Source: Diplocarpon mali
Taxonomy: Eukaryota > Ascomycota > Leotiomycetes > Helotiales > Drepanopezizaceae
Length of the DNA: 23,414 nucleotides
Assembly: GCA_024741835.1 (NCBI GenBank)
Contig: JAENRP010000476.1
Span: forward strand, 1-23,414
Direction of reading: 5' to 3'
Shown here: piece by piece, positions 2 through 19,359 of the stretch
Position numbering within the stretch: the stretch's first letter is position 1
Layout of the letters: every line of letters begins with the position of its first letter
Notes under the pieces: generated by a model
Seen by the model: only the letters and a program-made list of their open reading frames with translations
The model's database searches: none
Told to the model about the DNA's origin: nothing
Made by a program: the position numbers and the translations under genes

Positions 2-3000
2 TTAAGTATTAATCTTTTATCTAGCTATAAGATTTATATAAAGTTGAATTATATAAGAGTTTTTAATAATCAATTTATATAATTTATAAATAATAATTAT
101 AAAGTGATCTTTAAAGCTAAAATCAAAGATAGACTTTATATTATTTTAAAGGTAATATTATAAAAATTAACTCTTAAGCTATACTTATAAGTGGATTCCT
201 TTAAGGAAAGTGCACTCTTTACCTTAATACAATTAAGTAAGGATAGGGAGAATAGATGGACTCTTAAGCTAGGATTATAAGTGAAATTCGCGAAAATGAC
301 TCTTAAGCCAAGACTATAGGTAGATTGCAAAGTGTCTTTAAAAGTGACTCTTAAGCTAGGATTATAAGTGAATTTAGTAGAAATAACTCTTAAGCTAAGA
401 TTGCAAATGGATTCTATAAATTTATTAATAATAACTCTTAGGCTAGGATTATAAGTGAAATTCGCAGAAATAACTCTTAAGCTAAGACTGCAAGTGAAAT
501 TCGCGAATTTATTAGAAATAACTCCTAAGCTAAGACTATAAGTAGATCTTGCTATTTTTAGGAAATCGACTTTTAAGCTAGGACTATAAGTAGATCTTAT
601 AGTTTTATTAAAAACGACTCTTAAGCTAGGCTTATAATTAGAAAACGGTAAAACCTTGAACTGCTATTACTAGTCCTTTTTAACTATTAATAATAAAGCA
701 TTAACTAATAATAGGCTATTAAAGCTATTAGAAGCCGAAAGCCTATTAAAGTATTAGCTAATATATAAAAGATTCGCGTATTTAAATCTAAAGAAATTAA
801 AGGGCTTATATAAGGTCTTGATTTTAAAATAGAAGATCTAAGTATTAAAGGATCGCTTAATATACTGAATTTGCAAGCTAATAAAACTTTAAAATTAGAT
901 GTAAATTAAGCTTAATTTATAAAAAGATTCGATACTAGCGCTAATATCTATTAATACTACTAGACTATTTATAACTTTAATTAAAGGAAATAATTGGTTT
1001 TCTTAAATAGTAGATAACTCTATTTAGTAGATATAGACTATTTGCATTAAGACTAAATCTAAGCTTATAAAAAGGCTAGAAACTTAGAAAGTAATAAAGG
1101 AACGCTGGACCTAATTAAAGCTAATAGCTATTAGGTCTAATAATATATTAAAGATTAAGGCAAAGCTTAATAAATAGGTAAAATAAGGAGTTTATTATAA
1201 ACTAACTATAATATATAAAGGTTCCTATTAAAATAGTATTATTAAGTAAAGCATTTAGTAAGTAGAGACTAACTATTGCGCTCTATTATAAGATACTGAC
1301 CTACTATTGGAATTCTGGGACCTTGCAATTAAGGTAGATGTATACTTGCGAAATAGAATAGGTAGTAGACTAATAGTTAATAGGACCCGAATATCGCTAT
1401 ATAAGGTATATTTTAAATAGAAACTAAGCCTAAACTATATTTGCATCTTTAGAAGCGTTTGCTACTCTTATATTAGCCCGAAGTCTTAGCCTACGGGTAT
1501 AAAAAGTAAGAAGCTAATAGACCAAGGTAAAAAGTATATATTTATTAGGTATATTAAATAGATAATAAAACAGTAGATAGTATATACGCTAGATCTAAGG
1601 CGAGTAATCATATCTTTAATAGTTAAGTTTAATAAATCTTGAAATAGAAAGGAGCTGTCTTTAAAGTTCCGTATATCTAAAGATTCGTAAGGTATACTAC
1701 TTAATAGTGATACTATTAAGCCGAATTAATAACCCCTTTCTCTTAGCTCAGGCATATTAAGCGCACCTACTAATCGACGACCTATTAGTTACCTAAAGGC
1801 CGAATAGACTATTCCTATCGTCTGCGAACTACTTAAAGTATAGAATAACTTTAATATTATTATCCTTTTAATTAAAGTACCTATAGTAAAGGATATTCCT
1901 AAAATAGGTATAAGTAATAATAAGCCTTTACTATCAGAAAGCGGTTCCTTAGATAATAAGCCTATAGAACCTATAGCCGAACCTACGTCTTTAAAGAGGA
2001 ATAAAGACCTAGAATCGGAAGATACTTTAGATAAATGTAAGTTTAAGCGTATTTAGGCTATAATAGCGCATAAGATCTATAAGCTCGAACTTTAATAGAG
2101 CTTTAATAAAGATAATACATTCCTAACCGCTAAGGGAATAATGAAAATCTCTCTTTTAAAGATATATAATAAAGCTATTAAGGATTTAGAGAATAGAGTA
2201 GTATAAAATAAAGCAATCTAAGAGGAGATAAGTTCTCTTATTGCAAATAGTATATAAATAAAGGAACCGACGCTAAAGGACGTAAACCTAGTTTTAATAA
2301 AGTGGGTCTTTATAATTAAGATATATGCAAATAGGACCCTAGAATATTATAAGGCAAGGCTTAGAGCTAAGGGCTTCTCCTAATAGTATAAAGAAGACTA
2401 CTTTAATACATTCGCGCTAATAGTTCGCATAGATACCCTTTGTATATTTATAGTAATAATAGCTATTAAGGACCTTAAATGCAAATAGTATAATATTAAA
2501 AATGCATTTACCAAAGCGATTATAAAGGAACGGATTTTTCTCTTTTAACCTAATAGTATTCTTATATACGCTAGCTATTCTCTTTATATACTTTGCAATA
2601 TCTATAGGCTTAAATAATCAACTTATAATTAGAACCTCTTATATAGTTCTGCTTTAATAGAAATAGGATTTATTTAAAGCTTAGCTAACCCTTATCTATT
2701 TACTTATATTAAGTGTAGAATTAAGTTACTATTATATATTAATAATATTGCTATAGCTATAAAAATAACTATTCAATTAGATTAGTTCTTTATAATAATT
2801 CGGAAACGTTTTAATACTAAGGATTTAAAGGGAATTTATAAGATCCTTAGCATTTGCGTTATAAGGAACCGTTTTACTTAAGAACTTTAGTTAAACTAAA
2901 AGTAGTATATTAAGAAGATCCTAAACTAAAAAGGACTTTCTACTTATACTTTTAACTTTAAGCTAAAGTATATTCTAATTGAAGGAAAGTATAATAAGTT

Positions 3001-3735
3001 AGAGCCTACTAATAAAAATAAATAGAGAGGAGATTTAAAGAAGTACTAATAGGATATTAAAGCAATTATATATACTATAGTATATATAAGATTAGATATC
3101 GCCTTTATTATTAGGCAATTTAATCAAAACTTAAAGGATCTGACGATTTAATATAAGAACGCAGTTAAGCGCCTTAAAAGGTACTTTCGATTAACAATTA
3201 TATAAAAGGTAAGATATAGACTAACGAAATATATAAGCGCAAAGCTTAAAGTATATACTAATTCCAATTAGGCAAATATAAAAGGTTAAAAAAGTATATC
3301 TAGAAGCGTAATAATACTATATAGCAGACCTATATTATAAGGAAGTAGGAAGTAGAAATCAATAGCTACTATAAGTATTAAGGTTAAATATATATTAATA
3401 TTATTAAATTGCAAATAAGGATTATAAATCGCCTAAGTTTTAAAAGATATAGGTTTCGCTAAGTGTATTAGATAAGATAAAAATTATATTAATTTTTAAA
3501 TAGATAATATAAAGGCAATTGCACTTATAAAGAATCCATACTTATATAAGCGATCGAAATATATTAATATTACCTACTACTTTATCCGCGACCTTATTAT
3601 AAAAAATAAGTTATTAATTACTTATATCTTAACTAATCAAATAGTAGCAAATGGATTTATAAAGCTATTAAAGATAGTTGCAAAGTTTAAAGCGTTTAAA
3701 GATATACTAAGGTTGCAAAAGATAGTAGGGACTTA
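2..3735 (+). pseudogene. Ty1/copia polyprotein relic A (protease end to RNase H)
   Basis: Reading the frame that starts at base 2 gives a copia Pol in canonical order, already open at the window edge. About 2-168 resembles the protease/pre-integrase junction (NLLSSYKI, VIFKAKIKD). A repeat array follows (170-639), then a pre-integrase segment ending in KRFAYLNLKKLKGL near 770-810. The integrase core (about 940-1640) has IVDN near 1010, GSYQN, ALLQDTDLLLEFWDLA and LRNR. A linker follows, then RT from about 2300 (KWVF, KARLRAKGF, IKNAF, RLKQS, YINN) and RNase H to about 3735. The RT active-site YVDD has become YINN at 2735-2746. Nearly all stops are TAA/TAG at positions where the family has Gln or Trp, as RIP produces. 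One 1-bp deletion near 3661 shifts the frame relative to the inverted copy. Non-functional; gag lies outside the window or is lost. Confidence 0.9.
170..639 (+). repeat. Ten-unit in-frame array of 23-bp palindromic cores in copia Pol
   Basis: Cores begin at 170, 260, 299, 347, 386, 434, 473, 521, 569 and 617. From 260 on, steps are 39, 48, 39, 48, 39, 48, 48, 48, all multiples of three; the first gap (90) is also a multiple of three and holds a degenerate stretch. The core resembles ACTCTTAAGCT-A-GGATTATAAGT, a RIP-altered palindrome. In the copia frame each core reads roughly T-L/P-K-L/P-x-L-Q-V. Linkers alternate between 16 and 25 bp, often containing AAATTCGC. The array sits between the protease/pre-integrase junction and the ENGKTLN/KRFAYLN region, so it would be an unstructured insert in the polyprotein. 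The same array read on the minus strand gives a 64-codon frame with TYNPSLRV-type repeats, a consequence of the palindrome and not a separate gene. Confidence 0.88.
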
Positions 3736-3750
3736 GTAGGCTTAAGGACA

Positions 3751-3899
3751 ACTCCTAGGCCTGCCTTATAAGTTAGGTTATATAGTCTTATAAAGGAAAG
3801 TTTTTAAATCGACTCTTAGGCCTAGACCGCGAGTTAAGTTATATAGTCTTATAAAGGAATGCTTTTAGGAAATTTGACTCCTAGTCCTACCTTATAAGT
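3751..3899 (+). repeat. Three palindromic cores after the copia RNase H
   Basis: Cores lie at 3751-3773, 3812-3834 and 3877-3899. The first reads ACTCCTAGGCC-T-GCCTTATAAGT. Steps are 61 and 65 bp, not multiples of three, which fits a position beyond the end of the copia reading frame. The linkers (TTAGGTTATATAGTCTTATAAA type) are unlike those of the coding arrays, so only the core is shared between locations. Mirrored at 6729-6877. Confidence 0.85.
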
Positions 3900-3907
3900 A
3901 GGGTTAG

Positions 3908-4233
3908 TGATTTTAATAGAGGTTACTATTAATTAATTGTTTTTAATTTAAAGAGATACTTAAAAGTTAGATTAGCGTAAAAGGATAGTTATTATTTTCC
4001 TAACTGCAGGTCAATCGGAGTAAGGTCTGAGTAAGGGTATTAAGATAGGTGATATAGCTATTACTCTAATATATTATCATATAACCCTATTGCTTAGTTA
4101 GTAGGATATTGATATATATATAGCTATAAGGAAGAAAGGGGTAACCTTCCTTCTTTAACTCTTACTAATATATCGACTATCGACCTTTAGAAGCCTCCTT
4201 TACCTACTGCGCCGACTCACTTAAGCTCAATAA
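3908..4233 (+). repeat. LTR-like block, probable copia 3' LTR, left arm
   Basis: The block runs from TGATTTTAATAGAGG to TTAAGCTCA(ATAA). It lies just downstream of the copia RNase H and cores and is preceded by a purine-rich AAGTAGGGTTAG that could be a polypurine tract. It starts with TG and ends near CA, as LTRs do. A TATA-like run (GATATATATATAGCTATAAG, about 4110-4130) could be its promoter, pointing toward the spacer. No matching direct LTR is visible upstream in the window, so the LTR call is inferred; terminal inverted repeat is the alternative. Mirrored at 6395-6714. Confidence 0.5.
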
Positions 4234-5392
4234 CTTAAGGTAATAAGAGAGGAATAACCTTCTAATTAAAACTAGGCTATATAAAGTGCGTTATATATTA
4301 GAAAAAGGACTACTATAGTAGTAAGCACTTAAAAGAAGAAAGAGCCGCTTAAAAGTCTTACTATATAGTAAGCTAATAAGCCAAAGGCTATAAGCTAATA
4401 AATAAAATATATAAGGCATACTTAGCTTAAGAGGATAATAGAGTATATTTAAAAGGTAATAGGACTAATAAGGATAAGTAAGAAACGTCTTTAAAAGAGG
4501 AGGACTAAGCAATTAGCGACCCTAAGGATAGTAATATCAACTTTACTATAATATTCCTAGCTTCTAATAAGGAATATAATTCGAGAACTATGCTTAACTA
4601 GCTTAAAAAGCAAAAGGCTAAATACCTTTTAATAATAAAGTTCAATAAACCTATATAAATAAACCTTAAGGTATTTACAACCTAGTGGACGGATCAGTTC
4701 TTTTAAGGATTCTTAATTAAAATAGGCACTTTAAATAAAAATATAAAAGGAATTAATTAATTCAAAGCCTTATAAAATATATAGGACGCAGTTCTGGCTC
4801 TACTTAGCGCTAAAAAGTATAAAATTACCTTTAAGGTAAGTTCGCAAAATGCAATCGGTAAGACAACTATTTAAATACTAGCAGGCCTTATAGAATTCTT
4901 AATTATAAAGGCAGATATACCATTTTTAATCTACTTATAATAACTTAATAAAATAGGAGCTAAATACAATAATCTGCGCAATTCGCTTATAATTAGTAAG
5001 GAGAAACACTTAATTGTTAAAAAATATAAGTACCTATGGCTCCTACTTAATATAATAGAGCAACTTCTAATAACTTTAAAGAGTATAATTAATATATGCT
5101 ACTTGATAGAAATAGAGATCTAAAGGCTATATAAAAGATTCGGACATCCTTTAGTAAAGCGCCTTAAATACCTTTTGAACTAGGCCGGTTATAACGTAGA
5201 CTCTAGCATTATAGCAAGAGTAAGGGAAATATACTAATATTATTAACTCTATGCCGACGCCCTTTACAGATTCCGATTTAAGCTATAAGACGATATCGAC
5301 TTCAATTATACTATATATATCGATATTACTTAGTTCAGTAGAAGGAACGCCCTTTATACAATTGATAAAGCGACGGGATTTAAAGCCGTAAG

Positions 5393-5699
5393 TGTAACGA
5401 CACAGAACCACCGAAGTGCGAGATCAAGTATGGTAGCAAGAAGTAGTGCAAAAGGCGTATTCTATAGGTCTAATACGAAAGAAACGAAGAAGTTAGAGAG
5501 CCCTCCCTATAGGAGAGCCCTTCTCCCTTATATACATAAGCAGCTCAAGGCTCTTTGCCCGTTTACGTGATATTATATAAGAATATCCTTTTGTACCTTC
5601 GGGGTCGATTTGAAATAACCCTATATCGAATCGAGATTGCAAAACCTTAAAACGCCGTACTCCTAGGTAATTGCACTAGTTGGGGGTGCGGCCGTTATA
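5393..5699 (-). mobile_element. Solo LTR with 5-bp target-site duplication GTAAG
   Basis: The insert starts TGTAACGACACAG and ends GGCCGTTATA (ancestrally GTTACA), so its ends are inverted repeats of TGTAACG type. It is flanked by GTAAG at 5388-5392 and GTAAG at 5700-5704. On the minus strand it begins TATAACGGCCGC, like the start of the gypsy LTRs here (TATTACGGCCGC). A TATA box reading TATATAAGGGAG lies at about 5526-5536, which fits minus orientation. It keeps many CpA and TpG dinucleotides, unlike its surroundings. Rejoining the flanks restores the integrase frame. It is probably the remnant of a full element lost by LTR-LTR recombination. Confidence 0.88.
5526..5537 (-). promoter_or_regulatory. 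TATA box of the solo LTR
   Basis: The plus-strand CCTTATATACAT reads ATGTATATAAGG on the minus strand. Its place in the middle of the LTR, in the orientation set by the LTR ends, is as expected for the U3 promoter. Inference from sequence only. Confidence 0.45.
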
Positions 5700-6394
5700 G
5701 TAAGGTTCTTATAAAAGGGAATAGGAGCACATTCGGCCGACGCAGTATTTTAAGCCCTTAAATTGGCTTAGCTAAATACGTATATTAGACCTTTTGATTT
5801 TATGGTATATAATTATAGTATTAACTTCAACTCAGCAGAGTTTAGAAGCTCTTTAAGATCTATAAGAATAACCCTTAAGCTAGTTCCTATAGAGGCGTAC
5901 TACTCTATCGGCAAGGTCGAATAGTATTATTACCCTTTAAGATATACCTTTAAGATAATAATAGCTAAATACCCTTAATTAAGCGATAATAAAAGGCTGT
6001 AAATGGCTATTAAAGTAGTTAATAGTATAGTAGGGCCTAATAAGATGATTCCTACCTTACTTATTTTTAAGGCATATCTGAGGCTAATTGAACTAAATCT
6101 ACTAAATCCGTTAGTAGAATAGAGGATAGTAATAATTAAGAAGGCTATAAAGGAAGTAAGGAAAGTCTATACTACTCGCAAGGTTAATAACGCTTTAAGT
6201 ATAAGGAATGGCCTTAGAACTACTTATATCTATAACTTAAGGCTAAAAGACCTAGTATTAATATATTAAGAGAAGGGAGGATAGATAGGCCTATTTAAGT
6301 TCCTAGGCTTAGAAAACGAAACCTATATAGTTAATATTAGCAGTAGAATAAAGCACTTTAAATTAATAAGCGTACGCCTATTTAAAATTGATAA

Positions 6395-6714
6395 TTATTG
6401 AGCTTAAGTGAGTCGGCGCAATAGGTAACGGAAACTTCTAAAGGTCGATAGTCGATATATTAATAAGAGTTAGGGAAGGAAGGTTACCTCTTTCTTTCCT
6501 ATAGCTATATATATATTAATATCCTATTAATTAAGCAATAGGGTTATATAATAATATATTAGAGTAATAGCTATATCACCTATCTTAATACCTTTACTTA
6601 GACCTTACTCTAATTGACCTATAATTGGGAAAATAATAATTATCCTTTTGCGCTAATCTAACTCTTAAGTATTTCTTTAAATTAAAATAATTAATTAATA
6701 ATAACCTCTATTGA
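6395..6714 (-). repeat. LTR-like block, right arm
   Basis: Reverse complement of 3908-4233, running from TTATTGAGC to about AAATTACTA. It has the same TATA-like run (TATAGCTATATATATATT, about 6499-6516). It carries more RIP-type changes at its outer end (TG to TA). LTR or terminal inverted repeat; not resolved. Confidence 0.5.
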
Positions 6715-6728
6715 AATTACTAAACTCC

Positions 6729-6877
6729 ACTTATAAGGCAGGACCGAGAGTCAATTTTCCTAAAAGCGTTCCTTTATAAGACTATATAACTTAACTCACG
6801 GTCTAGGCCTAGGAGTTAATCTAAAAACTTTCCTTTATAAGATTATATAACTTAACTTATAAGGCAGGCCTAGGAGT
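6729..6877 (-). repeat. Three palindromic cores, right arm
   Basis: Cores lie at 6729-6751, 6794-6816 and 6855-6877, spaced 65 and 61 bp, the mirror of the left arm. The last ends GGCAGGCCTAGGAGT, close to the unmutated consensus. Confidence 0.85.
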
Positions 6878-6894
6878 TGTCCTTAAGCCTATTA

Positions 6895-8787
6895 AGCCCC
6901 TACTATCTTCTATAACCTTAGTATATCTTTAAATACTTTAAACTTTGCAACTATCTTTAATAGCTTTATAAATCCATTTGCTATTATTTAATTAATTAGG
7001 ATATAGGTAATTAATAACTTATTCTTTATAATAAGGTTATAAATAAAGTAGTAGGTAATATTAATATATTTTGATTACTTATATAAGTATAGATTCTTTA
7101 TAAGTATAATCGCCCTTATATTATTTACTTAAAGATTAATATAATTCCTATCTTATTTAATATACTTAGCGAAACCTATATCTTTTAAAACTTAAGCGAT
7201 CTATAATCCTTATTTACAATTTAATAATATTAATATATATTTGGCCTTAGTACTTGCGATAGCTATTGATTTCTACTTTTTACTTCCTTATAATATAAGT
7301 CTGCTATATAGTACTACTACGCTTTTAAATATACTTTTTAAACCTTTTATATTTGCTTAATTAGAATTAGTATATACCTTAAGCTTTGCGCTTATATATT
7401 TTATTAGTCTATATCTTACCTTTTATATAATTATCAATTAAAGGTACCTTTGAAGTCGCTTGACTATATTCTTATATTAAATCGTCAGATCCTTTAAGTT
7501 CTGATTAAGTTGCTTAGTAATAAAGGCGATATCTGGTCTTATATATACTATAGTATATATAATTACTTTAATATCCTATTAGTACTTTTTCAGATCTCCT
7601 TTCTATTTATTTTTATTAATAGGCTTTAACTTATTATACTTTCCTTCAATTGGAGTACGCTTTAGCTTAAAGTTAGGAGTATAAGTAGAAAGTCCTATTC
7701 GGTCTAGGATCTTCTTAATATACTACTCTTAGTCTAATTAGAGTTCTTAAGTAGAGCGGTTCCTTATAATATAAATGCTAAGGATCTTATAAATTCCCTT
7801 TAGATCCTTAGTATTAAAACGTTTTCGAATAGTTATAAAGAACCAATCTAATTAAATAGTTATTTTTATAGCTATAGTAATATTATCGATATATAATAGC
7901 AATTAATTCTACGCTTAGTATAAGTAAATAGACAAGGGTTAGCTAGGCTTTAAACGAATCCTATTTCTACTAGAGTAAAGCTATATAAGAGGTTTTAATT
8001 ATAAGCTGATTATTTAAGCCTATAGATACTGCAGAATATATAAAGAGAGTGGCTAGCGTATATAGGAATACTATTAGGTTAGGAGAGAAAAATCCATTCC
8101 TTTATAGTCGCTTTAATAAATGCATTTTTAATATTATACTATTTGCATTTAAGGTTCTTAGCGGCTACTATTACTATAAATATACAAAGGGTATCTATGC
8201 GAACTATCGGCGCGAATATATCGAAGTAGTCTTTTCTATACTATTAAGAGAAGCTTCTAGCTATAAGCCTTGCCTTATAACGTTTTAAGGTCCTATCTAT
8301 ATATATTTTAATTATAAAAACCCACTTTATTAATACTAGGTTCATATCCTTTAGCATTAATTCCTCTATCTATATGCCATTTGCAATAAGAGAGCTTATC
8401 TCCTCTTAAATTGCCTTATTCTATATTGCTCTATTCTTTAGATCATTAATAGCTTTATTATACGTCTTTAAAAAAGAGATTTTCATTATCCTTCTAGCGG
8501 CTAGGAACGTATTATCTTTATCGAAGCTTTATTAAAGTTTAAGCTTATAGATCCTATATGCTATTATAGCCCAGATACGCTTAGACTTGCGTTTATCTAA
8601 GGTATCTTCTAATTCTAAGTCTCTATTCCTCTTTAAAGGCATAAGTTCGGCTATGGGTTCTATAGGCTTATTATCTAAGGAATCGCTTTCTAATAGTAAA
8701 GGCTTATTATTACTTATACCTATTTTAAGAATATCCTTTACTATAGGTGCTTTAACCAAAGGGATGATAATATTAAAGTTGTTTTAT
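6895..8787 (-). pseudogene. Ty1/copia polyprotein relic, inverted copy (linker, RT, RNase H)
   Basis: The minus strand carries the same protein as 1840-3735: an acidic/basic linker (8532-8759 survives as a 75-codon frame with KDILKIGISNNKPLL and SLDNKPIEPIAEL), then RT and RNase H. The RT active-site motif reads YIDN at 7882-7893, where the left arm has YINN, so one catalytic Asp still codes here and the copies mutated independently. The linker and RT are one base out of register compared with the left arm, showing a 1-bp indel. Plus-strand frames at 8049-8288 and 8587-8817 are antisense shadows. Integrase and upstream domains are missing, cut off by the gypsy LTR. Non-functional. Confidence 0.87.
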
Positions 8788-9028
8788 TATTACGACTTGC
8801 TCTGGAGTGTACAGTAGGGCGAGAATCGAATAACGCTGACTGTATTACCTCAAGAGGTACGCTATATAATAGAGAAGAAAAGATAAAGAAGAGAGAGTCT
8901 TTAGTAGAGCTCCTCCAGAATAAGTACAGGTGCTTTACTAGCGTGCATATAATCTAGCCACCTTGCTACCTTAGCGTATACCTGACTTTGATACGTAATA
9001 TAACTGTATATATAATGCGGCTGTAATA
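8788..9028 (-). repeat. Gypsy copy 1, 3' LTR
   Basis: 241 bp. Its ends are TATTAC and GTAATA, the RIP-altered form of TGTTAC and GTAACA. It aligns along its length with 15784-16035, but has lost an ~11-bp segment near 9015. CACGTG-type sites of the other LTR have become ATATAA/TACGTA here, so this LTR is the more heavily mutated one. Confidence 0.9.
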
Positions 9029-9031
9029 CTA

Positions 9032-9043
9032 CCCCCCCCTTTT
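9032..9043 (-). other. Polypurine tract of gypsy copy 1
   Basis: The plus strand has eight C followed by TTTT directly beside the LTR. On the element's sense strand this is AAAAGGGGGGGG, the expected plus-strand primer site just upstream of a 3' LTR. It fixes the orientation of the element and the LTR boundary. Confidence 0.88.
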
Positions 9044-9159
9044 GAAAAACTGCGCCTGCGCAGGTGTATCTATAGGCGTATTATCCTCTAGTTCCCTATA
9101 ATCGTTAATGCTATTATTATATGACCTAAGCCAGCTTAATAGCGCCTTTAGCAGCCCTT

Positions 9160-9345
9160 TAGCTTAAGGGTTTTTTAAATGGAAATCTCAAATAGCATAT
9201 AGTGCTATTATAGCATTAGAGCATAGGTAGTATTCGAGGTCTTTATTAGCTCCTTTCCACTTAATCTAATATTTGAGCTTCTTAACTTAAATATAAGATC
9301 TAATTATTTCTTCTATCTCCTACTCCTCTTATTCTAGTAGTACCT
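9160..9345 (-). other. Integrase C-terminal chromodomain (copy 1)
   Basis: In the Pol frame the sequence reads E-EIEEIIRSYI, then KYQIKWKGANKDLEYYLCSN, then QDFHLKNP with stops at Gln sites. This matches the chromodomain pattern of an acidic E-V-E-x-I-L start, a V-K-W-K-G-Y strand, D-x-E-W-x-P-x-x-N and a terminal helix. In chromoviruses such domains tether integration to modified chromatin. It is encoded next to the polypurine tract and is entirely missing from copy 2. Confidence 0.85.
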
Positions 9346-10685
9346 TAATTAAGGCAGGAGGTTCTTAAACTTATCCTAGCAAGGGGTTAGGAAGGTATTT
9401 ATATAATAAGTACGAGTGGAAAACAGGGTAGATCGAATAGAGCAAATTAGGCAATTATAGCTTCTAGCTTTCTCCTACCTTTTCTAGTACTTTTACTAGG
9501 CTATACTACTTATTAGAGAGCTTTCGGCTCGGCCGGTCTAGTTTCCAGTTTTTAATACTAATTAGTATATCATCTCCTATAGTCCAATTAACTAGCTAGT
9601 AGTAAAGATCTACAAGCTATTTCATTTTAGCCTATTATACTTAAAGAGATAATTAAGCGAATTAGACTACTTTTTAAGCTCTAATAGCTATATAAAGCGC
9701 CGTTTTATAATTTAATCTCTTAATTACTATTTATAAAGGCTTTAGGTTAATTAAATTCCAAGAGGAGCGAGCTTTATAGCTATTTAGCACTTAGAAAGGG
9801 GAAATTTGCCTTAGGGATTCGTAAGGCAAGGTCAATTGGGCAATATCTATTAAAGGTAAGAGACGACTCCAATTGTCTTAATAGTATAAGTAGAATAGTC
9901 GGAGGCGTTATTTTAAATACTAGTTTATAATCTTAGTTTACCTATCGATATTAGGGTTATAAGCTATAGTTAGCTTAACCTTTATACCTAGTATCTAATA
10001 GAGCTCCTTTTAAAAGGTAAAGACGAATTAGGCGCCTCTATCTAATAGAATTGAGTTAGGCATGCTAAAATGGCATATCTAGTGAATTAAAAACAACTCT
10101 ATAAGGCCTTTTGCATCAACTGTCTTATAGTATAGGATCAATACTACCTTCTTTAATAATTGGTCTATTATTATTAGTACAAAGTTATAGCCGAGTTTAT
10201 TAAGCGGAAGTTCTATAAAATCTATTATCAAGTATTAATAAGCTTATTCGAGAATTAGTAAGGGTTATAAGAAACCGGGGGTCTTATTATAATAAGCTTT
10301 TATTCTTAAATAACAATAGTTCTAAATGTAAGTACTAATATTGCTGCTAAGGCTTTTCTAATAGTATTTTCTTCTTATTAAAAGCCTTGTTTTCCCAATT
10401 CTAGCGTATGCGACGCAAGGTTGCTTATATATATAACGAATTAGGGCTATTTGCAGTTCGGGAGGTTAGGATAGCATAATAAGTCTACCTTAAAAGAAGA
10501 GTTTGCCTTAGCTAAGTTTATAATCGAGGCTATGGCTCTACGCCTTATTTCAGAACTTCTATAGCTTAAGGGAGGTCTTATTAGCTTAAATGACCTTATT
10601 AATAATATAATAGCTTACTATATTATACTCGACCTTTAACATTAGGTCGGCAGGTGCCTCTATTAGCGCGATTAGCATAATCGTC

Positions 10686-10708
10686 ACTCGTAGGCCAGGC
10701 CTAGGAGT
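10686..10708 (-). repeat. Single palindromic core between RNase H and integrase (copy 1)
   Basis: The best-preserved core: ACTCGTAGGCC-A-GGCCTAGGAGT. On the sense strand it encodes T-P-R-P-G-L-R-V in the Pol frame, between EVLATRNDS and TIMLIAPIEAP. Copy 2 has two units at the same place, 45 bp apart. Confidence 0.88.
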
Positions 10709-12587
10709 AGAATCGTTTCTAGTAGCAAGTACTTCTATAAAGAGCTTATTATTAGGCAAGAGCTGCTAATAGCGTAAAGCTCGTTTCCTGGCCTTAAAAG
10801 GGGTTAGCTCCTGGTCTTAATATAAGAGTATATTAGCTAGCGTATTTATTATACCTATTTAGTATATAATAAGGAAGTTGAAGTTAGCGAAGAACTCCGC
10901 CTATTAAGCCTACTAGGCTATTAAGTCCTTAGTTATTATAAAGTACTTAAGGGCTTTATAATCTATATATACGTATACTATTTTCTAAGCCTTAAGTAGC
11001 TCTGCCTTATATTAGTAGAATAATTTAAAAATCGCTAAGAGCTCCTTATTATAAATAGGGTAATTTAGCTTAGTATTATTCATTATCTTTAAGAAGTACC
11101 TGATTAGGTGGTAGTTATCGTCTTCCTAGAGTTAGGAGAGTATATTAGCGACTATACCATCGGAGGCGTCGGTCTTAAGCCTTATCTACTTTTAAAGGTA
11201 ATAGTAGTATAAACTCGGGGTCGTTTAAAGGCTTAAGCATAGAGCTTTTTAAGCTTCTTTATAAGCATTATTAAAATTAAAAGGAACATTTCCTATAAGA
11301 GCTATTAAAGGTCGGCAAATACAACTATAGCCTTTAATAAACCTTCGGTAGAAGTTATAAAAACCTAGGAAGCTCTATATACTACGTACGTTCTTAGCAT
11401 ATTTCCACTCCTAAATGACTAAGACCTTATTAGGGTCTACTTTAATTCTATAAACTCTGATAATAAACCTTAAGAACTTAGTCTTAATAACTTTAAACTC
11501 GCTTTTCTTAATATCTGCTTAAAAGCTATAGCATTAAAGAATTCCTAAGATCTTTTTAATATAAATCTTATAATTAAAGGAGTTTTTTAAATAGATTAGA
11601 ATATTATTTAAATAGATAGAGTAAAAATCGTTAAGGTAGTTTAAGAGAATATTATTAATAAACTGCTAAAAGGTAGCAGGCCTATTTATTAGCTTAAATA
11701 GCAAAACCTTATATTTATAAGTCCTATAACGCATGCAAAAGGTAGTTAGGTCTTTAGTATTAGCTGATATACAGATATAGTAAAAGGCTTATTATATATC
11801 GATTTTTATAAAAACACAAGCTTTCGATATATATGCCATTATCTTATTAATAAGGGGAATTAGGTAGGGGTCTTTCTTTATTAAGGTATTTAGTTTTTAA
11901 TAGTTAATATATAGATATAAGGAGCTATCGGCTTTCTTAATAAAGAGGATTAGGGCTACCTAAAAGGAACTTAAAGCTTTAATAAATCCTTTATATAAGT
12001 TCTTAAGAATATAGCTTTTGACCTTTAAGAGCTATTTATTAATAAGGCGATAGAAGGGTTCGATTATCAAGTTGTTCTCGCCTATTAGCTCGATTTTATA
12101 ATCTACCCTTAGCCTGGGTTTCGGCAGCTGATCAAAGGCCTAGCGACTAAAGACATTCTTGAACTTAGCATACTAAGGCGGGAGCTTCTAGTCTATTAGC
12201 TTATTATTGCTCTTATACTTAGCTTGCAGCGCCGAACTAAGGCCAAGGGAGCTAATTTCAGCCTGCTTAACCGATTCTCGGCGATTGATTTCTTAGCGAT
12301 TGATTTCTTAATCTAGATCGTAAATAGAGCTTATAAATATGAACTCTTTAGGCATCAATTCTTAAGTTTGTATAGCTTATCTTACCTTAGTTATAAAGCA
12401 GTAGTAAAGGGCGCCGATTACTAAGGCTAAGATTAGGCTAATCTAATAAGCCGTCTTTAGCAAAGCGTTTCTCTTCACTTAAAGAGGAAGCAAGGAGTCT
12501 AGTACTTTTAATAAAGCCTTCTTTATATAGTTCAGATCTCTTTTCAAGTCTTTAAAGAAACTGCTATCCTTAGGTCTATAAGAGACC

Positions 12588-12800
12588 ACTTATAGGCCAG
12601 GACTAAGAGTAAGATTCGAGTTCGCAGATTTTACTCGCAGGCCGGGATTAGGAGTAGGATTCGAGATCGCAGATTTCACTCGTAAGCTAGGACTAGGAGT
12701 AGGATTCGAGATTGCAGATTTTACTTATAGGCTAAGACCGGGAGTGGGATTCGAGATCGCAGATTTTACTTGCAGGCCGGGACCAGGAGTAGGATTCGAG
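12588..12800 (-). repeat. Five 45-bp palindromic units in the protease-RT linker (copy 1)
   Basis: Cores start at 12588, 12633, 12678, 12723 and 12768, exactly 45 bp apart. Each core plus a 22-bp linker (AGGATTCGAGATCGCAGATT type) encodes a 15-residue repeat, SNPTP-x-P-G/S-L-x-VKSAI, in the Pol frame. The array lies between the protease-side sequence and KDSSFFKDLKRDLNYIKKAL leading to RT. Copy 2 has only three units here. Confidence 0.92.
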
Positions 12801-14542
12801 GCATTATTGCTTACTAGCATTAAGAGCTAGGCTTAGGCCATTCTTAGGTCTTCGTCCTTAGCATCTATTATAGCTGCTTAACGATCGATATCTTACTAGG
12901 CTATTAAGGGTTTTATTAACTATAAGAGATCGATTAATATGCATTAATTAAATTAAAGGATAATAGGCATATCCTTAAGCTAAGAGATACTATTTTTCCC
13001 CTTTCTATAGGATTATTTAAGGTTATAATGCTTTAAGAACTTCCTACTAATCAAAACGTCGGTTACTCTTAAGCTTATAATTAGAAAAGGGAAGTTTATT
13101 TATCGCCTATTGATTATAAGGGTAAATAAGATAGCGAATCGAATGGTTTCTCCTTTAAGGCTATTATAGCCTGTAGGGGTAATCGGTTTAAGCAGTTTAA
13201 TAAACTTTACCTTAAGTCTTTAAAAGAGCTAGTATATTAAAGACGTTTTAATAATATTAAAAATATTAGCTCTACTATTAATATAGGCAACTATTTTAAT
13301 AAATGATCTATTTTAAGCTAGTTTTATAAGAACTAAGAACTGGCAGCCGCCTATTAATAGGCGGGAATCAAAATTTAAGTCTTTTTATAAATTGTAACTT
13401 ATATTATAGTAGGAGTCTTTGCTATAGCTTAGCAGTTTCCTAATAGTAGGTTATTTTCTATCTTAACTTTAGCTATTATAAACTTGCCCTACTTCTTTAA
13501 CTTAAGGCAGTCTGTTATATAATGATTAAGGGCTTTGTAGTTATAGTAGAGATTAGACGACGGCTTTAGGCTAGCAGACCTTTTTTAGTAGGCCGCCGGT
13601 AAGGGGGAATAAGTGCAAGGAGCTAAGGAAGTAGCTATAGCTATAGGTCTTTATAACTCCCTTTTCAATATACTAAGGACGCGGTCCTTTAAAAGGGAGA
13701 ATGCGATAGTAGGAGCGACTTATCAAGCGTTATAGGCTTCTTCTTATTTGATATTATAGGCCTTGCAGTCTGTAATAGCTAAGAACTTATCTAAAGTAGT
13801 ATAATTATTATTTATTTTATACTTCTTTACTCAAAGGTCGTTCTTTAAGGCTAAAGAGACCTTTTTACAAATGTTATCAAACTAGCAAGACTGATTAATC
13901 TTACTAGCTATTGTAAAGGTAATAAACTTGGATTAGAACTCATTATATAATATTAAACCTATAGTTAGCTTATTATATTTGAGCTTAGCGGATTAAATAT
14001 AGTTATAATTAAAGAACCTTTAATCTAAGACCCTAAGGATATTAATAGCGCATGTAAACTTATTAGCAAAGATAGGATCTATATATTATAGAATTAGGTT
14101 TTAAGCTTTACCTATTATACATTTAAAGTAGGTAGTGATCTAGTCCTCTCTTAAAGTGAAGTTGCTTAAGTACTTTTAAATAAATACCTTTATAGCCATC
14201 TTCTAAGCGTTATAGGTAATTTCGCCTTAGTAGTTGCTAAAATAGGTTTAAAGGTACTTGATTTAATAGAGGTTAATAGCAGGGACTAAAGGTCGGATAA
14301 TTGGGAGGTAATAGTCTAAGGGAGGTAGTAAGTCGGCGGTAAGGGCCTAAGTATTCTAAGGGCTAGCACTTAAGAAAGAAGGGGCAGCAGTATTGTTTTA
14401 AAAAGCAGCGGCTATAGTAGCGCTAATAAGGGTTGCGATTTCGGCCTATTAAGCAGTTGAAAAGAGAGGGGCCGATATAGTAAGGGTAGACGTCGGTTCT
14501 TCCTTAACTTCAATCGATAAAAGGGGAGTATTTTAAGAATCT

Positions 14543-14565
14543 ACTCGCAGTCTAGGACTAAGAGT
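14543..14565 (-). repeat. Palindromic core inside Gag (copy 1)
   Basis: ACTCGCAGTCT-A-GGACTAAGAGT, encoding T-L-S-P-R-L-R-V in the Gag frame. Its codon phase relative to the core is the same as at the two Pol sites, though Gag and Pol use different frames. A weaker core-like stretch (TNPSPRD) is at about 14625-14645. Confidence 0.8.
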
Positions 14566-14638
14566 AAAGTCGGTACTAAGGGAGGTTTCTTCCTAAGTAG
14601 GCTTAGGAGGAGGAATATCTCTAGGACTAGGGTTAGTA

Positions 14639-14719
14639 GTAAGGCCTATAGAACTAGTGGCAGTAAGGCCTATAGAACTGGTAGCAGTAAGGCCTATAGA
14701 ACTAGTAGCAGTAAGGCCT
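14639..14719 (-). repeat. 24-bp tandem repeat in the Gag N-terminus
   Basis: Three full units at 14639, 14663 and 14687 plus a partial unit to 14719. Each is close to GTAAGGCCTATAGAACTAGT plus GGCA. In the Gag frame each encodes the eight residues TATSSIGL. A low-complexity minisatellite with a length multiple of three, unrelated in sequence to the palindromic core. Confidence 0.93.
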
Positions 14720-14778
14720 AGTGATAGAGGTGCGGTTAACCTTTCACTTCTCCTAAGTGGTATAAGATTAGAGGTCAT

Positions 14779-15783
14779 AAGTACTAACTCTCTTTATATT
14801 ATCTAGTTTAGTCTAAAGGGACCTAATGCTAAATAGTAACCTATTTAAAAAGGGGAAGATCAATATAAGCAAAGCTATATACATTCTTAAAGCCTTTTAG
14901 TAGAATATATATTAAGGTATTATAGGTTTATAGATCTTAAAAAAGAAGGTTTTACTTTAGGATTATATCTCTTTACTAATCAGGAGTTATAATAAGGTTG
15001 CCTAAGGGTATAATGCAAATCTAAGGAAGTAGGGTCCGAGGATCTAAAGCTTATTACTCTACTAAAGTTGACCTAGTCTCTAATAATATAGTATAACCTA
15101 CTAAAGCTAACCAAGTCTCTATATATATATATAGGTATAGGTCCCTTAGTTTTATACCTAAGTATTCGAAGGAAGGAGTAAGGAGCTTCGAAGAGTATAA
15201 GGAAGGGTCGACGAGTATAGGTCAATAAGTATAGGTCGATAGGGAGTATAAAGAAGGTCGACGACTTATTCGCAAGGAGGTATCTTCAAAGAGTCGAGTT
15301 GTATTTAAGGGTTTCGAAGGAAGGAGTAAGGAGCTTTGAAGAGTATAAGGAGAGTTATCGATAAGTATATTATTAATAAGTATAAGGTCAATGAAAAAGA
15401 GTAGTATAGAGTTGTTTATAAGAGAGGGAGAAAGTTAAAAAGAGAAAAGCTATTATACTGCTCTAGGCAGTAGCCTATGCTAGCAAAGTAAGGGTATAGT
15501 AAATAAAATTTTTTTCAAATTGAAATTAAAGGTAAATCTCCGTTTATTAAATAGAGGAGGTAAGGGGTTGAAAAAACGAGCTAATCCTATATTCGAAGGT
15601 CGTTTTTCAGCTTTCTTTAAAAATTAGATTAATAAGATCTAAGCGCTATATATAAGTTGCTTAGGGCAGTTTGTAGTAAAAGTCGAGATCGAGAGATTGA
15701 GTTGCTTAAGGCAGTTCGAAATAACGATTCTAAAGGTAGTAGATATTAAGCTTCTTAGCAGAGGTTGAGTTAATCTTTTCTTA
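14779..15783 (-). other. Leader of gypsy copy 1, no gene seen
   Basis: About 1 kb between the 5' LTR and Gag ATG with no coding signal I can support. It contains direct repeats. A ~42-bp unit beginning TTCGAAGGAAGGAGTAAGGA is at 15165-15206 and 15313-15352. A CTACTAAAGYTRACC-AGTCTCTA unit occurs near 15058 and 15099. TTGCTTARGGCAGTT occurs near 15656 and 15702. Several AGTATAGGTC copies lie at 15200-15250. The primer-binding site should lie just inside 15783 on the minus strand (TAAGAAAAGATTAACTC); I do not recognise a tRNA match. Confidence 0.7.
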
Positions 15784-16035
15784 TATTACAACTAGCTCTA
15801 GAGCGTACAGTAGGGCGAGAATCGAACGCTAACTGTATTACCTTAAGAGGTATACTATATAATTAAGAAGAAAAGATAAAGAAGAAGAGAGAGTCTTTAG
15901 TAGAGCTCCTTTAGAATAAGTACAGGTGCTTCACTAGCGTGCACGTGATCCAGCCACCTCGCTACCTTAGCGTGCACCTGACTTCGACACGTGATATAAC
16001 CGTTCATGTGATATGCACATGATGCGGCCGTAATA
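15784..16035 (-). repeat. Gypsy LTR between copy 1 and copy 2
   Basis: 252 bp with ends TATTAC and GTAATA, homologous to 8788-9028. It keeps CACGTGAT twice and an inverted pair CATGTG-ATATG-CACATG at about 16004-16020, lost or mutated in the other LTR. It serves as the 5' LTR of copy 1, and copy 2 internal sequence begins immediately at its outer edge. Confidence 0.9.
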
Positions 16036-17299
16036 TATAGGGTAGATCGAATAAAGCGAATCAGGCAATTGAAGCTTTTAGCTTTCTCCTAGCTTTTCTA
16101 GTACTTTTACTAAACTATACCACTTATTAAAGAGCTTTTAGCTCAGCCGGTCCAGTTTCCAATTTTTAATACTAATTAGCACATTATCTCCTATAGTCCA
16201 ATCAATTAGCCGGCGGTAGAGATCTGCGAGCCATTTTATCTTAGCTTATTATACCTAAAGAGATAATTAAGCGAATTAGACTACTTTTTAAGCTCTAATA
16301 GCTATATAAAGTGCTATTTTACAATTTAATCTCTCAGTTGCTATCTATAAAGGCTCTAGGTTAATTAAATTCTAAGAGGAGCGAGCTTTATAGCTGTTTA
16401 GCACTTAAAAAGGGGAAATTTGCCCTAGGGATTCGTAAGGTAAGGTCAATTAGGCAATATCTATTAAAGGTAAGAGACAATTCCAATTATCTTAATAGTA
16501 TAAGTAGAACAGTCTAAGGCGTTATTTTAAGTACTAGTTTATAATCTCAATTTAGCTATCAACATTAGGGTTATAAGCTATAGTTAGCTTAACCTTTATA
16601 CTTAGTATCTAATAGAGCTCTTTTTAAAAGGAAGAGACGAATTAGGCGCCTCTATCTAATAGAATTGAGTTAGGCATATTAAAATAGCGTATCTAATGAA
16701 TTAAAAACAACTCTGCAAGGCCTTTTGCATCAACTGTCTTATAACATAGGATTAATACTGCCTTCTTTAACAATTGGTCTATTATTACTAATGCAAAGTT
16801 GTAGCTGAGTTCGTTAAGCAAAAGCTTTATAAAATCCATTATTAGGTACTAATATACTTATTCAAGGATTAGCAAGGGTTATAGGAAACCTAATGCTTTA
16901 TTATATTAAGCTTTTATCCTTAAATAATAATAGTTCTAAATATATATGCTAATATCGCTACTAAGGCTTTTCCAATAGTATTTTCTTTCTACTAGAAGTC
17001 TAGTCTTTCCAATTCCTATATATGCAACGCAGGATTACTTATATATATAACAAATTAGGGCTATTCGCAGTTTAGAAGGTTAAGATAGCACAACGAGTCT
17101 ACTTTAAAAGAAGAGTTTGCCTTAGCTGAGTTTATAATCGAGGCTATAGCTTTGCGCCTTATCTCGGAACTTCTATAGCTTAAGGGAGGTCTTATTAGCT
17201 TAAATGACCTTATTAATAATATAGTAGTTCGCTATATTATACTCGACTTTAGACGTTAGGTCGGCAGGTGCCTCTATTAGCGCGATTAGCATAATCGTT

Positions 17300-17367
17300 A
17301 CTGGTAGGCCAGGCCTAGGAGTGGAATTGATCTGCGCTAAAGTCACTTATAGGCTAGGCCTAGGAGT
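17300..17367 (-). repeat. Two palindromic cores between RNase H and integrase (copy 2)
   Basis: Cores at 17300-17322 and 17345-17367, 45 bp apart and both in the Pol frame, where copy 1 has only one. The second unit therefore represents an in-frame gain or loss of 45 bp between closely related copies. Confidence 0.9.
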
Positions 17368-19246
17368 AGAATCGCCTTTAGTAGCGAGTACTTCTATAGA
17401 GAGCTTATTATTAGGTAAAAGCTACTAGTAGCGTAAAGCTCATTTCCTAGCCTTAAGAGGGGTTAGCTCCTAGTCTTAATATAAGAGTATATTAGCTAGT
17501 ATATTCGTTATACCTATTTAATATATAATAAAGAAGTTAAAGTTAGCGAAGAACTCCGCTTAGCAAGCCTACTAAGCTATTAAGTCCTTAGTTGTTATAA
17601 AGTACTTAAGGGCTTTATAATCTATATATATATATACTATTTTCTAAGCCTTAAGTAGCTTTACCTTATACTAATAGAATAATCTAAGAATCGCTAAGAG
17701 CTCCTTATTATAAATAGGATAATTTAGCTTAGCGTTATTTATAGTCTTTAAGAAGTACCCGATTAGGTAGTAGTTATTATCTTCCTAGAGTTAGGAGAAT
17801 ATACTAGCAATTATACTATCAGAGGCGTCAGTCTTAAGCCTTATCTACTTTTAAGGGTAATAATAGTATAAAATCAAGGTCGTTTAAAGGCTTAAGCGCA
17901 GAGCTTCCTAAGCTTCTTTATAAGTATTATTAAAGTTAAAAGGAACGTTTCCTATAAGAGCTAATAAAGGTCGGCAAATACAACTATAGCCTTAAAAGAA
18001 CCTTTGGTAGAAGTTATAAAACCCTAGGAAGCTCTATATACTGCATACGTTCTTAATATATTTCTACTCTTAAATGATTAAGACCTTATTAGAGTCTACT
18101 TTAATTCTATAAATTCTAATAATAAACCCTAAGAATTTAATCTTAGTAACCTTAAACTCGCTTTTCTTAATATTTACTTAAAGGCTATAGTATTAGAGAA
18201 TTCCTAAGATCTTCTTAATATAAATCTTATAGTTAAGGGAGTTTTTTAAATAGATTAGAATATTATTTAAGTAAGTAAAGTAGAAATCGTTAAAGTGGTT
18301 AAGGAGAATATTATTAATAAACCTTTAAAAGGTAATAGGCCTATTTATTAGCTCGAATAGTAAAACCTTATATTTATAAGTCCTATAATATATACGAAAG
18401 GTAATTAGGTCCTTAGTATTAGCTAATATATAGATATAGTAGAAGGCTTATTATATATCGATTTTAATAAAAACCTAAGCTTTTGATATATATGCTATTA
18501 TCTTATTAATAAGTAGAATCGGGTAGGGGTCTTTCTTTATTAAGGCGTTCAGTTTCCGATAATCGATATATAGACGTAAGGAGCTATTAGCTTTTTTAAT
18601 AAAGAGGATTAGGGCTGCCTAAGGGGAACTTAAAGCTTTAATAAATCCTTTATATAGGTTCTTAAGAATATAGCTCTTGACCTTTAAAAGCTATTCGTTA
18701 GTAAGGCGGTAAAGGGGTTCAATTATTAAATTGTTCTTATTTATTAGTTCGATTTTATAATCTACCCTTAGCCTTATTTCCAGCAGCTAATCAAAGGCCT
18801 GGCGATTAAAGACGTCCTTGAACTTAGCGTACTAAGGCGGGAGCTTTTAATCTATTAGCTTATTATTACTCTTATACTTGGCTTATAGCACCGAACTAAG
18901 GCCAAGGGAGCTAATTTCAGCTTGCTTAATTGATTCTTAGCAATTGATTTCTTAGCGATTGATTTCTTAGTCTAAATCGTAAATAGAGCTTACGAATATA
19001 AACTCTTTAGGCGCTAGTTCTTAAGTTTATATAGCTTATCTTACTTTAGTTATAAAGCGGTAGTAAAGGGCGTCGATTGCTAAAACTAAGATTAGGCTAA
19101 TCTAGTAAGCTATCTTTAAAGGAGCGGTTCTCTTTATTAAAAGAGGGAGCAAAGGGTTTAGTACTTTTAGCAAGGCCTTCTTTATATAGTTCAGATCTCT
19201 TTTTAAGTCTTTAAAGAAACTGCTATCTTTAGGTTTATAAAAGGCC

Positions 19247-19359
19247 ACTCGCGGGCTAGGCTTAGGAGTAGAATTCGAGTTCGCAGTTTTCATTTATAAG
19301 CTAGGCCTAGGAGTAGAATTCGAATTCGCAGTTTTTACTCGCAGGCTAGGCTTAGGAGT
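19247..19359 (-). repeat. Three 45-bp palindromic units in the protease-RT linker (copy 2)
   Basis: Cores at 19247, 19292 and 19337 with GAATTCGAGTTCGCAG-type linkers. Copy 1 has five units here, so the copies differ by exactly 90 bp in frame. Confidence 0.9.

Follow-up and report, generated by a model that had tools for sequence, protein, structure and literature searches.

A Short Near-Palindrome Shared by Unrelated Retroelements of Diplocarpon mali and Found Mostly in One Codon Phase

INTRODUCTION

In-frame palindromic repeats present in otherwise unrelated genes have been described chiefly in Rickettsia (PMC10969869, PMC6649704). The Rickettsia palindromic elements (RPEs) are dispersed, sit in frame in unrelated open reading frames (ORFs), and are translated as a conserved peptide (PMC10969869). 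Here we describe a ~35-bp near-palindrome, hereafter the unit, which recurs in copia and gypsy retroelements of the fungus Diplocarpon mali and was noticed in a stretch of 23,414 nucleotides (nt) (contig JAENRP010000476.1 of assembly GCA_024741835.1). We call this whole stretch the window; its genome comprises 49.37 Mb in 676 contigs, and all genome-wide counts refer to the whole genome. The evidence inclines us to the view that the unit is a coding near-palindrome copied repeatedly between retroelements, duplicated in tandem locally, and filtered for frame.

In retroviruses, the dimer initiation site is a dimer-linkage palindrome near the 5' end of one element. Ty1 has a kissing-loop palindrome near its 5' end, and self-complementary RNA can pair two RNAs (PMC5454406). 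The unit may resemble these palindromes in the self-complementarity that it would confer on retroelement RNA, a likeness whose functional side is hypothetical, but it occupies linkers and 3' regions of unrelated elements. The short palindromes of Volvox carteri, found in organelle and nuclear DNA, have spread as apparently selfish DNA and are in these respects like the unit; on the other hand, they average ~50 nt, belong to noncoding organelle DNA, are reportedly inert in the nucleus, and have no coding phase (PMC2670323). Nematomorph mitochondria have inverted repeats of up to 284 bp inside translated sequence, a likeness in coding position, but by our interpretation of that article these repeat the genes' own conserved sequence and do not constitute a dispersed family (PMC6649704).

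The earlier note on this DNA had drawn a comparison with RPEs, and the likeness as an in-frame, dispersed palindrome stands. Like an RPE, the unit is a dispersed palindromic repeat with unrelated flanks (24 clusters, 139 sites, ~35 bp of information) and keeps a constant phase within unrelated ORFs (14 of 15 clusters with a clear frame; deposited proteins P0001, P0002, and P0122). However, RPEs are ~150 bp long, bacterial, and described in metabolic genes, whereas the fungal unit is nuclear and lies in retroelements, is often arrayed in tandem, and occurs also in retroelement stretches without a clear frame. None of the prokaryote genomes searched contains an exact match to its core, which sets its sequence apart without a direct RPE alignment, and, as regards the RPE trait of insertion into host genes, 20 of 20 picked fungal copies lie in repeats (judged by eye, with no systematic gene search). 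Thus, the unit behaves like an RPE, yet is not one, because size, sequence, and taxon differ.

No prior description of the fungal element was found in the open-access literature (most subscription papers and all preprints lay outside this scope), in line with the suggestion that it might be undescribed in fungi; the string "palindrom" does not occur in the main texts of the D. coronariae/M. coronaria articles PMC11527701 and PMC7864672 or of the D. rosae article PMC5628827. A eukaryotic nuclear case at about a quarter of RPE size and inside retroelements would show ~35-bp copying between unrelated mobile elements, and this copying would come with retention of one codon phase. It makes two ideas testable, namely, that palindromes promote retroelement exchange and how linker peptides originate.

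RESULTS

The unit is a ~35-bp near-palindrome with unrelated flanks

The anatomy of the unit was determined from 29 fetched loci, which were chosen for holding the motif and hence do not sample the genome at random. They contained 144 sites at ≤5 mismatches, of which 5 were dropped at contig ends or in stretches of N, and the 139 kept grouped into 24 clusters by flank similarity. The motif consists of RAWTYN, a 23-bp GC-rich core, and NRAWTY, ~35 bp in all; across the 24 clusters, its information is near background more than ~17 bp from the center, in a profile that is symmetric by construction because both strands were counted. Only the core and ~6 bp per side are common to the clusters, and the flanks beyond are unrelated, which bears out the earlier observation that the copia 3' sites have the core, but not the linkers, in common with the others.

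The core as first quoted is a real motif, but its TAGGCC/GGCCTA arms are the version damaged by repeat-induced point mutation (RIP) and not the original form: less RIP-damaged copies, which lie in less AT-rich surroundings, read ACTCSYGGGCCNGGCCCRSGAGT, with GGGCC/GGCCC. Similarly, the description as a 23-bp palindrome fits the core, while the whole unit is ~35 bp long and only near-palindromic, because position 5 often mispairs with position 19 in many copies. Every core base whose position is a multiple of 3 falls at a third codon position whichever strand is read, and therefore either orientation encodes nearly the same peptide, T-P/R-x-P-G-x-R/G-V.

The unit is abundant and specific

In the window, the core as first quoted gave 26 matches at ≤7 mismatches, compared to 0 to 2 in each of 10 first-order Markov shuffles, and 15 matches at ≤5 mismatches, compared to none in 10 of 10 shuffles. 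All of the ~28 copies reported earlier are present: 25 fall among the 26 matches, and units 170, 386, and 6729, more degraded than the 7-mismatch limit, were identified by reading the sequence. The 26th match, at position 1476, is probably due to chance. When the 27 units other than that at 6729 were scored with positions 5, 12, and 19 left free, 20 had RIP-type changes or none and 7 had one other mismatch.

In the genome-wide search that the earlier note had proposed, the same core was found at 465 places at ≤2 mismatches. The CAGG/CCTG form was found at 479, the GGG/CCC form at 780, and the general form ACTCSYRGKCCNGGMCYRSGAGT (≤1 mismatch) at 1601; these sets overlap, and the reversed control gave 0 in every case. 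A slightly narrower form of the core was searched for in 84,980 prokaryote genomes, without an exact match, and in viral contigs, where the single exact match, on a contig of 70% GC, is probably due to chance.

Units lie preferentially in one codon phase

To avoid bias from stops in the core, stops were counted in the flanks only. The frame with the fewest stops was phase 0 in 18.0 of the 24 clusters (ties shared), against 8 expected. Merging of one array left 22 clusters; with a clear frame defined as one in which the best count is at most 0.6 of the next, 7 clusters had none, and phase 0 was found in 14 of the other 15 (P = 2e-6 under three equal phases). One of the 14 (L020:3557) lies in an element resembling a large retrotransposon derivative (LARD) and may be noncoding; its exclusion leaves 13 of 14. 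Hosts are fewer than sites because several clusters share one ORF (five in an unclassified element), and the largest flank cluster merges sites from the protease-reverse transcriptase (PR-RT) and RNase H-integrase (RH-IN) linkers. In the window, Pfam domains anchor the reading frame for 16 units, all of which are in phase (10 in copia Pol and 5 + 1 in gypsy copy 1), by coordinate arithmetic that assumes no indel between unit and anchor. Phase is thus not random, and the claim that all coding sites use one phase holds for all but one clear-frame cluster, which is weighed below.

In its less damaged form, the core is free of stops in every frame, and in-core stop avoidance therefore does not explain phase 0. 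A G or A at N24 gives the right flank a TGA, TAA, or TAG in one of the other phases, and avoidance of this stop can account for part of the phase bias; allowing two phases still leaves P at about 5e-4 (arithmetic).

Less damaged units encode the T-P/R-x-P-G-x-R/G-V peptide mostly between domains. The peptide is conserved in phase, as claimed earlier, but this form replaces the T-P-x-P-G/S-L-x-V first read from damaged copies. Less RIP-damaged copies of both gypsy and copia A (L041, L056, and L057) encode T-P-G-P-G-P-R-V. Ribosome skipping of the 2A type, which needs an N-P-G-P core with upstream residues, was considered and rejected because these are absent.

Hosts are several kinds of retroelements and repeats

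The copia and gypsy hosts noted in the window agree with Pfam, in which copia RVT_2 and gypsy RT_RNaseH are clear, gypsy RVT_1 and copia SH3 fall just under the curated cut-offs, and the gypsy SH3 match is likewise below its own (Table 1). Altogether, the hosts are one gypsy and two copia families, a LARD-like long terminal repeat (LTR) element, an unclassified ORF element, and two other repeats. Gypsy sites are in gag and in the PR-RT and RH-IN linkers. Copia A sites are a protease-integrase array (assigned by eye and from the SH3/RVT_2 frame that follows it), a neighboring unit (L048 and L049), and three units 3' of pol. Copia B has two units between gag (PF14223, 4.3e-6, 26.7 bits against a cut-off of 27) and a protease-like motif recognized by eye (L032 and L040).

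The LARD-like element is ~3 kb long, with direct repeats of 246 to 250 bp and several internal units (L018:2672-5628, L020:3147-6064, and L021:5626-8649); L020:2000-4800 had no Pfam match in six frames. The unclassified element, found in L011, L015, L022, L025, and L029, with some stretches that read N, holds five units in phase within a 4.5-kb near-open frame in L025 and had no Pfam match in three separate scans. The remaining repeat hosts are the L036 type and the L028/L054 array. By eye, all 20 picked near-perfect copies (with 64 to 74 bp of flank) belong to repeat families already seen, and three further long open arrays (L056 to L058) are copia A and gypsy. No copy in a host gene was seen, host genes not having been searched systematically. 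For a copia A ORF that carries tandem units on the strand opposite to pol, no protein relatives were found.

A T-rich tandem repeat of ~30 bp (GCACTTCTATTAAGGGGTGATTTTTTTT type) lies beside one unit at L011:9520-9660, at L031:1430-1530, and in the L036 type; the neighboring T-rich tandem repeats in L011, L031, and the L036 type are without a unit.

Relatives carry the same peptide

The gypsy piece in L014 has its best match in the D. coronariae polyprotein P0001 (75% identity over 84% of the query), with differences that look RIP-like by eye. T-P-G-P-G-P-R-V also occurs in the deposited D. coronariae polyproteins P0001, P0002, and P0122, which show the unit in predicted sequence. In P0002, the stretch between RNase H and integrase reads ...ATRGDSTPGPGPRVTLAQIDSTRGPGPRVTSVPIAPIE..., and the gag end of P0122, a deposited relative, reads ...DFTPGPGPRVDS. 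When the RH-IN linker was excised by motif from 24 gypsy relatives among 122 fetched proteins, the unit was present in only 3, all from Diplocarpon; a protein search with this linker returned 4 proteins, all from D. coronariae (197 candidates). P0003, a 58%-identical relative, has no unit in its RH-IN linker and carries STREPGPRVKEA in the PR-RT region. By eye, and at the protein level, this peptide and the Diplocarpon PR-RT unit lie on opposite sides of a helix-like segment, a placement that suggests independent gain in a relative.

The unit may also affect annotation. By eye, compared to L014 and L057, the gene model of P0122 appears to splice out the PR-RT array as an intron, which is probably an annotation artifact. 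The D. coronariae genome is reported to contain 34% repeats, with 20.7% copia and 5.7% Ty3 (PMC11527701).

Arrays vary in length

The number of units at a site varies between copies of an element. The RH-IN site of one gypsy family has, to judge from spacing, a single unit in 11 of 40 copies and 2 or 3 in the others, and 12 aligned PR-RT regions have 1 to 5. Tandem arrays have periods of 45, 39/48, or 61/65 bp with site-specific spacers; they grow locally by tandem duplication.

Empty sites were sought by flank searches in the fetched DNA and by genome searches with joined flanks. The fetched DNA gave 28 candidate rows, all explained otherwise: 18 are a deletion of 14 to 15 bp, half a unit, in the last PR-RT unit of L013, L014, and L021; 5 point to a copia A unit of L027 that is degraded; and 5 point to the T-rich tandem repeat that adjoins a unit in both L011 and L031. 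In L057, too, 14 to 15 bp (about half a core) are missing from the last PR-RT unit.

DISCUSSION

The reading we favor, repeated copying of a coding near-palindrome between retroelements with local tandem duplication and filtering for frame, accounts for a sequence that is shared at unrelated positions in unrelated retroelements. Sharing is not confined to homologous positions of one lineage and phase is not random, because the flanks of the 24 clusters are unrelated and 14 of 15 clusters have one phase. New sites would originate when the unit is copied from another element, either through template switching during reverse transcription or through ectopic repair, and only in-frame copies tolerated in linkers would persist for as long as their host element stays active. 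The majority of the ~1600 copies would then arise through transposition of their hosts, with RIP damaging them afterwards. That most copies stem from host-element replication is probable because 20 of 20 picked copies lie in repeats already seen and no empty copy was observed at the two sites scored. The earlier note had proposed a mobile or hotspot-copied element; the unrelated positions support it, mobility itself was not seen, and "hotspot-copied" is as compatible with the data as "mobile." It is conceivable, as a tentative elaboration, that the unit is a parasite of parasites, a self-complementary coding sequence at which the RNAs of unrelated retroelements pair within one particle, so that reverse transcriptase switches template from one to the other.

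Several observations weigh against repeated copying. The comparison of loci with and without a unit, from which clean insertion boundaries had been hoped, produced no empty copy: the gypsy RH-IN site is occupied in 40 of 40 scored copies (180 candidates); at L025:5004, 34 of 40 scored copies are occupied and 6 have the left flank only (222 candidates); and the length over the two L025 sites is kept in 40 of 40 scored copies (237 candidates). With the candidates from the fetched DNA resolved otherwise, the act of insertion was therefore not seen. The clear-frame site L029:9481 is in another phase. Non-RIP changes at wobble versus other positions number 3 versus 2 in coding units and 4 versus 4 in noncoding ones, which gives no decision on wobble preference. 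Hairpins show no clear gain in stability over shuffles: z scores of RNA folding were -1.0, -2.2, -3.5, and -1.3 for four units and those of DNA folding -0.9 and -2.1, and many units mispair at positions 5/19, mispairs being frequent and partly caused by RIP. These values likewise give no decision on the stable or conserved RNA self-pairing of a dimer-linkage palindrome. The target-duplication signal, described below, is suggestive but weak and uneven, and no copying enzyme or intermediate is known.

The main rival, which we consider unlikely, is that the linker peptide T-P-G-P-G-P-R-V is useful, as a cleavage site, a flexible linker, or a dock for host factors, and that copies are kept by positive selection. 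Function would account for the single phase better than tolerance does, given a core that is stop-free in all frames and yet in phase 0 at 14 of 15 clusters, and it agrees with units in gag and in interdomain linkers (RT and RNase H by Pfam; protease and integrase by eye or from relatives) and with the recurrence of this peptide at another location in P0003. However, units also lie in copia 3' regions and LARD-like interiors without a clear frame, nucleotide sharing goes beyond what a peptide needs, and part of the phase bias may be the flank stop avoidance considered above. Quite doubtful is a DNA micro-transposon similar to a miniature inverted-repeat transposable element (MITE) or an RPE, a palindrome mobilized in trans by a hypothetical transposase with target duplication. 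Direct repeats beside units exceed those in site-shuffled flanks (P = 0.00125 for 21 sites; P = 0.022 for 19 sites, without two of low complexity), for example, AGAATC beside the gypsy gag unit, GAATTG at site 2 of copia B, and TGATTTT in the L036 family, where the adjoining tandem repeat has no unit and the additional DNA resembles, by eye, the core plus TGATTTT. For inverted similarity, sought as terminal inverted repeats beyond the unit, no such surplus was seen (P = 0.92; 24 rows, among them array spacers and one site counted twice). Against a micro-transposon, 9 of the 21 sites have no direct repeat of ≥3 bp, and no insertion into a host gene was seen among the 20 picked copies, which were not a systematic search. 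The duplication signal is a lead only, because of these 9 sites, because lengths and offsets vary, and because the representatives were hand-picked with offsets allowed; at fixed offsets, 33 sites, some homologous, gave nothing clear (at best 5 perfect versus 1.3 expected, for offset 2 and length 4). Set against MITEs, the candidate target-site duplications are variable, and no empty site was seen among 40 RH-IN copies and 34 at L025:5004. Known eukaryotic transposons are, moreover, far larger than 23 to 35 bp.

Recombination of longer linker segments that include the unit, or shared descent, is improbable and already disfavored. LTR retroelements recombine readily, every classifiable host is an LTR retroelement, and 45-bp tandem arrays occur at three sites, but the common sequence stops ~17 bp from the center at 24 clusters, and the spacers of the 45-bp arrays differ at sites that are nonhomologous. 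Chance, low-complexity similarity, or an assembly artifact, to which the T- or A-rich nature of some flanks might point, is already refuted and has virtually no likelihood left: the reversed pattern has no match in the same genome, and the prokaryote and viral searches gave 0 exact matches and 1 probable chance match.

LAYOUT OF THE WINDOW

The window is a nest of dead retroelements that comprises two inverted copia copies and two gypsy copies in the same orientation (Table 1). It is mutated by RIP: CA and TG are at 0.38 and 0.31 of expectation and TA is at 1.41, the RIP product and substrate indices are 1.57 and 0.48, and no ORF of ≥120 amino acids with a start codon is found. Rfam gave no family at gathering score.

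Table 1. Coordinates of units and domain anchors in the window
Feature	Position	Strand	Basis or remark
Copia A protease-integrase linker, unit 1, RIP-degraded	170..192	.	In frame with 701 (531 = 3 x 177)
Copia A linker array: 260, 299, 347, 386, 434, 473, 521, 569, 617	260..639	.	Starts in frame with 701/2201
Copia A SH3-like domain, frame anchor	1415..1642	+	PF25597, 4.2e-5, 23.8 bits (cut-off 27), residues 239-314 of frame 701
Copia A reverse transcriptase, frame anchor	2276..2941	+	PF07727 RVT_2, 7.6e-17, residues 26-247 of frame 2201
Copia A 3' region unit 1	3751..3773	.	Not in pol phase
Copia A 3' region unit 2	3812..3834	.	61 bp after unit 1, no multiple of 3
Copia A 3' region unit 3	3877..3899	.	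65 bp after unit 2
Copia A 3' unit 3, inverted copy	6729..6751	.	Read in sequence; inverted arms
Copia A 3' unit 2, inverted copy	6794..6816	.	Mismatch search and inverted arms
Copia A 3' unit 1, inverted copy	6855..6877	.	Mismatch search and inverted arms
Gypsy copy 1 Tf2-1-like SH3, weak match	9434..9577	-	PF24626, 0.0024, below cut-off
Gypsy copy 1 RNase H-integrase linker unit	10686..10708	-	Exact match to core as first quoted; in RT frame 12499
Gypsy copy 1 RNase H (RT_RNaseH)	10883..11191	-	PF17917, 5.6e-14
Gypsy copy 1 reverse transcriptase (RVT_1)	11471..11941	-	PF00078, 1.3e-6, 28.7 bits (cut-off 29.6)
Gypsy copy 1 protease-RT array: 12588, 12633, 12678, 12723, 12768	12588..12790	-	Period 45; all in RT frame
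Gypsy copy 1 gag unit	14543..14565	-	Mismatch search; frame could not be anchored in window
Gypsy copy 2 RNase H-integrase linker: 17300, 17345	17300..17367	-	Mismatch search
Gypsy copy 2 protease-RT array: 19247, 19292, 19337	19247..19359	-	Period 45; mismatch search

The 10 copia Pol units are the one at 170 and the nine of the array, which are spaced 39 or 48 bp apart, partly as an 87-bp higher-order repeat. The copia A 3' units sit between the end of pol and the 293-nt arm at 3941-4233, and just 5' of the first of them the pol frame has TAG TAG and TAA stops. The arms of the two inverted copies are 87 to 91% complementary (window 1840-8787, around 4234-6394). The 293-nt arms of this pair, 3941-4233 and 6395-6687, are LTR-like in appearance. 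In gypsy copy 2, the five linker units have one common frame. Near the gag unit of gypsy copy 1, a 24-bp tandem array of 3.6 copies lies at 14634-14720.

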